A stretch of DNA of 39,017 bases from Parcubacteria group bacterium GW2011_GWE2_39_37 (GTDB taxonomy: Bacteria > Patescibacteriota > Patescibacteriia > Patescibacteriales > GWE2-39-37). The stretch spans positions 1 to 39,017 of the forward strand of contig LBWY01000002.1 of NCBI GenBank assembly GCA_000995135.1, in the 5' to 3' direction. A program made the position numbers and the translations under genes. Positions 1,667 to 3,638 of this stretch are shown here, in pieces; the first letter of the stretch is position 1; each line of letters begins with the position of its first letter. Below the pieces are notes generated by a model, which did no database searches, was not told the origin of the DNA, and saw only the letters and a program-made list of their open reading frames with translations.

Positions 1667-3448
1667 TTAACGTTTTAAAATTTTGACAAAAGTATCACTT
1701 GGAATATCCACACTGCCTTTGCCCATGGACATCATTTTCTTTTTTCCTTTCTTCTGTTTTTCCAAGAGCTTGCGCTTTCTTGAAACATCGCCGCCGTAAA
1801 GTTTTGCAGTTACATCTTTGCGCATGGCTGAAATTCTTTCTGCGGCAATCACTTTACTGCCAATTGCAGCCTGCAATTTAACTACGAACATTTGTTTTGG
1901 TAGGGTATCTTTCAAAACATTAACCACTTCCTTCCCCCTTCTAAAAGCTTCATCACGATAAACGATGGTAGATAATGCCTCGACAATATCTTCAGCAACC
2001 ATGATATCCAGTCTCACAACATCTGTTTCTCTGTAATCGATGAATTCATAATTGATTGAGGCATAGCCAGAACTGATACTTTTCAATTTGTCATAGAAAT
2101 CGGTCAGAATAGCACTCATCGGCATTTCATAATGCAGCACGGCTCTCATTTCTTCTAAATATTCTGTATTTTTGTAGACGCCTCTTTTTTCCTGAGCAAA
2201 AGTCATTATTGAACCGATATAATCTTTTGGCGTAACGATATCCATTTTTACCCAAGGCTCATTAATTTTAGTTATTTCATTCGGTTCAGGCAACATTTGC
2301 GGACTGCTGACAACAATCTCTTCTCCGCTTGTTTTTGTAACCCTATAAGAAACACTAGGGACAGTCACGATCAAATCCAGATTGTATTCGCGTCTTAATC
2401 TTTCTTGAAAAATTTCCAAATGCAGTAGGCCTAAAAAACCGCATCTAAAACCCAAGCCCAATGCCTGAGACTGCTCCGGTTCATAAACTAAGGCGGAATC
2501 GTTTAATTTTAATCTTGAAACTCCTTCACGCAACAACTGGAACTCATCGCCTTCTTTGGGGAAAATACCGGCAAAGACCATCGGCTTGGCCTCTATATAA
2601 CCTTGGAGCGCTTCTACCTTGTCTATATCTTTTTGTAAAATCACCGTATCACCGACACGACATTCGCTGACATCTCGAAAACCGGTAATGATATAGCCGA
2701 TCTCTCCTGATTTAAGCGATTCTTTAGAAAAATAATCCGGCTTAAAAATACCCACATCAATCGCCTCACTTTTTGCTGCGGTGGCAATCAGGTTGATTTT
2801 ATCACCTTTTTTGATTTCTCCATCAACAACCCTGACATAGGCGACCACACCGCGATATTCATCATAGTTTGAATCAAAAATCAACGCACGTTCAAGCTTT
2901 TCCGGCTCGCCCTTTGGCGCCGGAATGTACTTGATGACGGCATCCAAGATATCGTTAACGCCCAGACCTGTTTTTCCGGAAGCGCTAATTATCTCTTCTT
3001 CTTTGCAGCCAAGCAGCTTGATTATTTCTTTTTTTGTCTTTGGTACATCTGCCGCAGGCAAATCAATCTTGTTCACTACAGGAATGATGGTTAGATTCTG
3101 TTCGATGGCCAGATAGAGGTTTGCCAAAGTTTGCGCCTGGATTCCCTGAGTGGAATCAACTAATAAAATAGCTCCTTCAACCGCAGCCAAGCTTCTTGAA
3201 ACTTCGTAGCTGAAATCAACATGACCAGGCGTATCGATCAGGTTGAAGGTATAATCCTTATAGTTCATGGTAACCGGTGCCAATTTGATAGTTATACCGC
3301 GTTCCCTTTCCAGGTCCATCTTGTCCAAAACCTGTTCCTTCATCTTCCGTTTTTCAATCGTCCCGGTCAGTTCAAGCATACGATCCGCCAAGGTAGATTT
3401 ACCATGGTCTATGTGGGCAATGATACAAAAGTTTCTAATATTATTCAT
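1667..3448 (-). CDS. lepA: Elongation factor 4 (LepA), back-translocating ribosomal GTPase
   Basis: LepA/EF4 is a translational GTPase that binds ribosomes and affects initiation and elongation under stress. The 593 residues match the normal family length. The G1 loop reads AHIDHGKST at residues 11-19, followed by the switch I region (ERERGITIKL), DTPGHVDFSYEV (G3) and NKIDLP (G4). The C-terminal end KKMMSMGKGSVDIPSDTF is the hallmark EF4 C-terminal domain. The start is the ATG giving MNNIRNFCIIAHIDH, the usual family N-terminus. A 29-codon ORF that copies this same N-terminus ends 12 bases upstream (see the 3461-3550 entry). A candidate promoter lies at 3610-3638. Confidence 0.98.
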   Translation of the reverse strand: MNNIRNFCIIAHIDHGKSTLADRMLELTGTIEKRKMKEQVLDKMDLERERGITIKLAPVTMNYKDYTFNLIDTPGHVDFSYEVSRSLAAVEGAILLVDSTQGIQAQTLANLYLAIEQNLTIIPVVNKIDLPAADVPKTKKEIIKLLGCKEEEIISASGKTGLGVNDILDAVIKYIPAPKGEPEKLERALIFDSNYDEYRGVVAYVRVVDGEIKKGDKINLIATAAKSEAIDVGIFKPDYFSKESLKSGEIGYIITGFRDVSECRVGDTVILQKDIDKVEALQGYIEAKPMVFAGIFPKEGDEFQLLREGVSRLKLNDSALVYEPEQSQALGLGFRCGFLGLLHLEIFQERLRREYNLDLIVTVPSVSYRVTKTSGEEIVVSSPQMLPEPNEITKINEPWVKMDIVTPKDYIGSIMTFAQEKRGVYKNTEYLEEMRAVLHYEMPMSAILTDFYDKLKSISSGYASINYEFIDYRETDVVRLDIMVAEDIVEALSTIVYRDEAFRRGKEVVNVLKDTLPKQMFVVKLQAAIGSKVIAAERISAMRKDVTAKLYGGDVSRKRKLLEKQKKGKKKMMSMGKGSVDIPSDTFVKILKR

Positions 3449-3460
3449 AAATCACTAAAT

Positions 3461-3550
3461 TTAAATCATCTGAGTCTCGCCCGCTGTAGCCTTTGGCGTA
3501 GGCGGGTGGTCGATAAGAGCTATAATACAAAAATTGCGTATATTATTCAT
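3461..3550 (-). pseudogene. Duplicated lepA 5' fragment fused to a palindromic element (29-codon ORF)
   Basis: This short ORF starts MNNIRNFCIIALIDH, matching the first 15 residues of the adjacent lepA at all but one position (A-L-I-D versus A-H-I-D). It then leaves the LepA sequence exactly where the P-loop GKST should come and enters a GC-rich palindromic repeat translated as PPTPKATAGE, and stops. The DNA copies differ at many third positions, so this is not a fresh exact duplication. The ORF ends 12 bases before the lepA ATG. It could be a scar from replacement of lepA by a diverged homologue, a decayed tandem copy, or a leader peptide in the lepA transcript. I favour a remnant but cannot rule out translation. 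Confidence 0.6.
3478..3508. repeat. GC-rich palindromic repeat element
   Basis: The arms 3480-3491 and 3495-3506 fold around a three-base loop. GCC pairs with GGC at the tip, there is a short internal mismatch, then five GC pairs plus a GU wobble at the base. It is much richer in GC than its surroundings. From memory, sequences of this shape (CGCCTACGCC then AAAGGCTACAGCGGG) recur across many CPR genomes as dispersed palindromes. Here it has landed inside, or created, the truncated lepA copy and stays in its reading frame, much as Rickettsia palindromic elements do. Confidence 0.6.
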
Positions 3551-3609
3551 AAGTTAGCTAAAAAAAGAATGCTGTTCAATTTCCAGCAAATCTTTTATAT
3601 CTATCCAAT

Positions 3610-3638
3610 ATCTTACTAATTTTAATCCTTTTGGTCAA
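3610..3638 (-). promoter_or_regulatory. Candidate sigma70 promoter for lepA
   Basis: On the minus strand a TTGACC hexamer (3633-3638) is followed after 17 bases by TAAGAT (3610-3615). It points towards the duplicated 5' fragment and lepA. The -35 matches 5 of 6 consensus bases and the -10 matches 4 of 6. The DNA is AT-rich, so chance matches are common. Confidence 0.35.

Follow-up and report, generated by a model that had tools for sequence, protein, structure and literature searches.

Why would a bacterium carry, directly in front of a complete gene, a second and truncated copy of the start of that same gene joined to a palindrome? The question arises from the window, a stretch of 39,017 nucleotides that is contig C2 of the 970-kb genome of Parcubacteria group bacterium GW2011_GWE2_39_37. 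The gene, named lepA in the initial annotation, is one that we take to encode elongation factor 4. In that annotation, the truncated start was thought to be an older or imported lepA 5′ end rather than a recent duplication, and possibly a leader peptide for lepA.

A partial lepA copy, a hairpin and a tail in front of lepA

The features of the locus are listed in Table 1. The short ORF begins with MNNIRNFCIIALIDH, in which 14 of 15 residues are those of LepA, and a gap of 12 bases (3449–3460) separates it from the lepA ATG at 3448, as initially described. At the DNA level, the two copies of the lepA start (3507–3552 and 3405–3450) are 78% identical over 46 nt. This short match reached E = 1.2e-4 against the whole 970-kb genome, and its local alignment score was 48, whereas 40 shuffled versions of the upstream region reached 28 at most. 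The many synonymous changes reported at first sight are present: among the 14 codons compared between R1 and R2, seven differ silently and one changes the amino acid. R1 encodes M..IRNFCIIAHIDH, and the hairpin is placed at the codons just before the glycine-lysine of the P-loop. On the minus strand, the sequence runs from ...GACCA into CCCGCCTACGCCAAAGGCTACAGCGGG, the hairpin, and then into CGAGACTCAGATGATT; intact lepA starts just past the element tail.

Table 1. Features of the lepA locus in the window (positions from its first letter)
Feature	Position	Strand	Basis
lepA, intact, 593 aa	1667..3448	-	ORF call
R2, matching start of intact lepA	3405..3448	-	alignment to R1
Element tail, CGAGACT-CAGATGATT..., up to the lepA ATG	3449..3479	-	sequence
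29-codon ORF through R1, hairpin and tail	3461..3550	-	ORF MNNIRNFCIIALIDHPPTPKATAGETQMI
Element hairpin CCCGCCTACGCCAAAGGCTACAGCGGG; base of the stem at the junction with R1	3480..3506	-	fold
R1, partial copy of the first 44 nt of lepA; 3′ end abuts the hairpin	3507..3550	-	alignment
Likely promoter TTGACC-17-TAAGAT, upstream of the short ORF	3610..3638	-	by eye, inferred

The hairpin of the window is imperfect. Folded together with the 7-nt tail it gives a dG of -11.8 (z -2.0), and 5 of 100 shuffles fold equally well. We found no second copy of the palindrome in the window genome with up to 3 mismatches, which discards a repeat family expanded in this genome. A motif like the likely promoter is also seen, by eye, upstream of lepA in three other genomes (G027, G009 and G037; G and L numbers denote genomes and loci throughout).

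Recurrence at lepA and at other genes

The full arrangement is present at lepA in 12 genomes from at least ten families: that of the window (G000) and 11 further ones, namely G027, G053, a Gracilibacteria MAG, G396 (locus L069), G254, G212, G177, G298, G122, G278 and G293. G027 was found among the lepA upstream regions of related genomes. A junction pattern matched six of the 111 genomes of the order, at lepA in G000, G027 and G053 and with a palindrome elsewhere in the other three. In public bacterial genome contigs a junction pattern gave eight loci, four of them lepA (the records of G053, from Falkowbacteria, of G027, of the Gracilibacteria MAG and of G396, equated by identical sequence) and four unrelated chance matches away from lepA. 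Searching 380 genomes of the class for a lepA- or typA-like start followed by CC returned ten genomes, eight of them true (G000, G254, G212, G177, G396, G298, G122 and G278) and two, G398 and G300, matching by chance. Finally, G293 came from a lepA-start search of 38 chosen relatives. In every full case at lepA, the start of the hairpin falls on the same codon, GAYCAC before GGNAAR, or next to it. No full case of a relative with the ORF but without the palindrome turned up; in a weaker thirteenth case, G049, a different hairpin adjoins 23 nt of the lepA start.

The genome of the window is a draft of 49 contigs, approximately 83% complete, and one could argue that the structure arose from chance similarity or from the assembly. 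However, the same structure occurs in 11 other assemblies, with scores far above those of shuffles. This recurrence already refutes such an explanation, to which we give practically no credence, and the assembly artefact that the initial annotation had contemplated is in practice excluded.

How the unit is distributed also bears on the proposed leader peptide, in which ribosomes translating a short ORF that copies the LepA N-terminus would open the hairpin and tune lepA translation. We consider this unlikely. It would fit with the stop codon of the short ORF, which lies near or overlaps the lepA start in several genomes, with lineage-specific N-terminal extensions common to leader and gene (MDTQ, MEL.K and MSN.IRN), and with the spacing of 28–29 nt from tail to ATG observed by eye in several families. 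Yet the unit is sporadic, the junction pattern having placed it at lepA in 3 of the order's 111 genomes, and the short ORF with its start is not kept in sister species: G009 and G037, of the same genus as G027, lack the unit, as does G163, of the same genus as G122. In G254, G298 and G001, moreover, the stop lies more than 110 nt before the gene, and two units are located in promoters.

Measured by eye from GACT to the lepA ATG, the spacing is 28 nt in the window, 29 nt in G027, G053, G298, G396 and the sisters G372 and G415, and 23–27 nt in other genomes. G372 and G415 (loci L232 and L233) have the tail upstream of lepA, as GGCAAGACTTGGATTATTC and GGTGAGACTAGGATTATTC respectively, with neither hairpin nor partial copy, so part of the tail could be native to the region upstream of lepA; in these two genomes it is either a relic or native.

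The unit is not confined to lepA. A search with the tail GGGGCGAGACTYRRATAATT, which contains no gene information, gave 14 places in 13 of 362 genomes. Eight of them have a hairpin (by eye), joined in all eight to an incomplete copy of the neighbouring gene end or promoter: four at lepA, one at tsaD (MFILGIETSCD precedes MIILGIETSCDE), one at a glycosyltransferase-like gene (MKLLMIT precedes MKLLMITRK), one at the 3′ end of a gyrB-like gene and one in a promoter, which brings the promoter sites to two in all. The remaining six show no such structure and, by eye, look like chance. Besides, two stacked units were found at typA in G001 and a single one in G408. The names typA, tsaD, gyrB-like and glycosyltransferase-like are those we presume from the translated sequence rather than from a family search. 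Downstream of the unit, the starts of lepA, typA and tsaD are intact, with an open frame and the start codon kept.

Separately, locus L042 (G076:C43, approximately 1300–1530) contains stacked 5′ fragments of a tRNA-like gene, each joined to a hairpin, before an apparently complete tRNA.

Anatomy of the element, flanking copies and long elements

After folding 19 units, we found that pairing begins at, or at most 1 nt from, the R1 junction in all of them. The joining of a partial lepA copy to a palindrome, first noticed in the window, is thus general, and the partial copy has its boundary at the base of the palindrome. An unpaired CGAGACT-like stretch comes after the 3′ arm in most units; L066 and the typA units G001a and G408 are without the full CGAGACT tail. 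Stem sequences vary from genome to genome. The inserted unit measures 45–167 nt, which leaves no room for an integrase. Regarding fold energy, 13 of the 19 units are equalled by no more than 6 of 100 shuffles, while the other six (G027, G396, G254, G212, G177 and typA G001a) are equalled by 10 to 41 of 100, and energy alone cannot tell these from shuffles. A known RNA family was discarded, with no Rfam match on the element in ten loci at E up to 1; the Rfam hits listed for these loci lie elsewhere and below gathering scores.

In 19 cases, the identity between the two copies holds up to about 45–50 nt from the hairpin and then falls to 0.2–0.3, the background level. The drop, at around 48 nt, is the same in coding starts and in promoter or 3′ cases, and copy length is 19–66 nt by an anchored measure. 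Some genomes have copies identical over 29–49 nt beside the hairpin, and perfect or near-perfect copies occur in G411, G254, G177 and G396.

Five long elements of 118–125 nt (at lepA in G254, G177 and G298, at the gyrB-like gene in G254 and at the glycosyltransferase-like gene in G360, so that two of the five share one genome) are homologous in their interiors, that is, with the ends removed: z ranged from 3.3 to 8.6 and at most 1 of 300 shuffles reached the score, in 10 of 10 pairs. Related long elements are thereby dispersed at different genes. The long typA element of G001 has no clear relation to these five (z 1.0–3.0). A covariance model built from the five and searched over the window and 167 loci recovered one new full-length element at a different place, L058 in G411 (66 bits, E 2e-12); its other matches were the five themselves and weak partial ones to four short or unrelated-looking units. 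At L058 (G411:C29), the element interrupts a promoter-like sequence after TTTGAC and is flanked on both sides by a perfect 49-nt direct copy that ends in TTTGAC. Just upstream of this element there is an ORF for an IS1595-type transposase (PF12762, 27.6 bits) with ends GGGTCTTGCCTAG and CTAGGCAAGACCC; the IS1595-type end GGCAAGACCC is loosely similar to the element tail. We found no transposase or integrase tied to the element.

Generic palindromes of similar sequence, whose pattern is matched in 40 of 379 genomes of the phylum, are also found inside ORFs, near genes and at tRNA ends. Among the 43 that were placed, three score at least 24 for a flanking copy and three more are marginal. The other 37 gave no clear flanking copy, although one of them, L058, was later recognized as nested within the long element that has such a copy. 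At L046, L047, L053 and L061, CCAGCCTTCGCCAAGGCTTCGGCTGG-type palindromes directly abut the 3′-terminal CCA of apparent tRNA genes from several members of the class. At L045 (G076:C98), a generic palindrome lies inside an apparently T-box-like leader (GATGGAACCGCG). The LepA ORFs of G053 (L044), G041, G018, G015 and G024 match in two pieces within one open frame, split near residues 176–180, and the insert of G053 holds a CCTCCCCCTTGCCAAGGGGGAGG-type palindrome. This in-frame palindromic insertion within the protein is separate, and we set it aside as different from the upstream unit.

Divergence of the copies and a candidate mobile element

Across 17 coding pairs, 75 codons differ silently and 21 change the amino acid. 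Twelve of these pairs have five or more differences (68 silent, 17 changing). Their changing fraction is 0.20, compared with 0.77, and never below 0.62 in 400 runs, in simulations of a freely decaying copy; this contrast is inflated, since the patterns that retrieved most of the coding pairs select for a conserved peptide. The three coding pairs outside lepA that came from the tail search still lean in this direction, with 12 silent and 2 changing codons (4:1 in tsaD, 2:0 in the glycosyltransferase-like gene and 6:1 in the gyrB-like gene). A plain model of insertion and decay does not predict this bias. Selection on a leader peptide would explain it in the 5′ cases, where the short ORFs diverge almost only silently. 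However, the pattern must have some cause besides the fragment being translated, because the gyrB-like fragment, at a 3′ end, has no start codon in spite of its six silent changes to one, and an ATG is missing from the G122 fragment.

The silent bias would also follow from exchange with related genomes, either during insertion or later. A rival reading is import, in which recombination with the lepA of another species would have brought in either the partial copy with its hairpin or the intact start, the hairpin merely marking the end of recombination. The silent divergence of the copies fits such an import, and so does G396, whose leader retains the initial codons ATGAATCAA that its relative G415 also has. 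In G027 the leader reads FAIL, whereas its own gene and both same-genus relatives (G009 and G037) read FCII. The fragment, not the gene, looks foreign there, and this comparison favours import of the leader, since the relatives resemble the downstream copy. Against import stand the perfect or near-perfect copies of G411, G254, G177 and G396, and importing lepA alone would leave a tail common to unrelated genes unexplained; we regard import as quite improbable. The initial view of an older or imported end therefore stands as far as the copies have diverged, mostly silently, and as far as G027 goes, but not in its dismissal of duplication, which, given the identical copies elsewhere, also happens linked to insertion. 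The leader idea keeps the silent bias in its favour and has against it the relatives without the unit, the missing ATG of G122 and the copies at a 3′ end and in promoters. Both ideas survive in part.

With moderate confidence, we favour reading the unit of the window as a copy of a mobile hairpin element of Patescibacteria, small and non-coding, that duplicates approximately 30–50 nt on insertion. The element would consist of a hairpin of about 18–150 nt and a short unpaired tail, usually CGAGACT-like, plus some 25 nt. An enzyme or a replication process would insert it after a (T)TGAC- or GAYCAC-like sequence, leaving a direct copy of about 30–50 nt on each side. Insertions at gene ends would survive because the copy closer to the body of the gene leaves it complete, and the other copy would remain as a truncated fragment joined to the hairpin. 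Older elements may then have been exchanged between related genomes by homologous recombination, which would yield copies with silent differences. More tentatively, these units may belong to a new class of mobile hairpin elements in bacteria, one defined more by its structure than by its sequence, with the hairpin base as the 5′ end and duplications of around 45 nt. In many lineages, such elements would have hit lepA at the same P-loop codons and typA at the matching site, and they could thereby stack repeatedly before a gene that is left whole. CRISPR-like repeat duplication, replication template switching, ribosome bypassing and a link to the IS1595-type end were considered as candidates only.

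Several known systems resemble this putative element in part. The Rickettsia palindromic elements (RPE) and the Wolbachia palindromic elements are small palindromic non-coding repeats in or near genes. The likeness lies in size and placement, although only the generic palindromes are, like them, dispersed in and near genes; compared by description, the unit differs from RPE in carrying a defined tail and a truncated duplicate of the neighbouring gene end. MITEs make short target-site duplications of fixed length, about 2–10 bp. Like them and bacterial insertion sequences, the unit is short and non-autonomous, occurs in several copies and has direct repeats at its target. Unlike MITEs, it has no inverted terminal repeat partner on the left, the CGAGACT tail being unpaired in the folds of most units, and its direct copies span 19–66 nt (about 30–50 nt, with 49 perfect nt in L058) instead of a few. 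Like REP elements (TnpA-REP/RAYT) and the IS200/IS605 family, it is defined by a hairpin, and insertion after a TTGAC-like target is found in some IS200/IS605 members; neither group is known to make target duplications, whereas the unit has direct copies. Integrative elements are also found at gene 5′ ends, and passages of PMC8409611 describe IMEVchUSA3 in dusA and SXT in prfC, islands that supply a new N-terminus to the target gene. As in those passages, the target gene here keeps a complete start; unlike those islands, which encode an integrase, the unit, at its size, has none. A phage or virus source is out as far as searched, with no match in phage records and none of two patterns in viral contigs. 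We found no description of such an element in the open-licence papers covered, and it is apparently undescribed.

The genomes of Patescibacteria are small and poorly understood, and an element that spares the genes it enters would explain puzzling fragments of gene starts that annotators would otherwise label as genes, pseudogenes or artefacts. Insertion of this gene-sparing kind would point to a new insertion mechanism. Besides, these loci offer a natural test of whether short ORFs that copy a protein's own N-terminus regulate.
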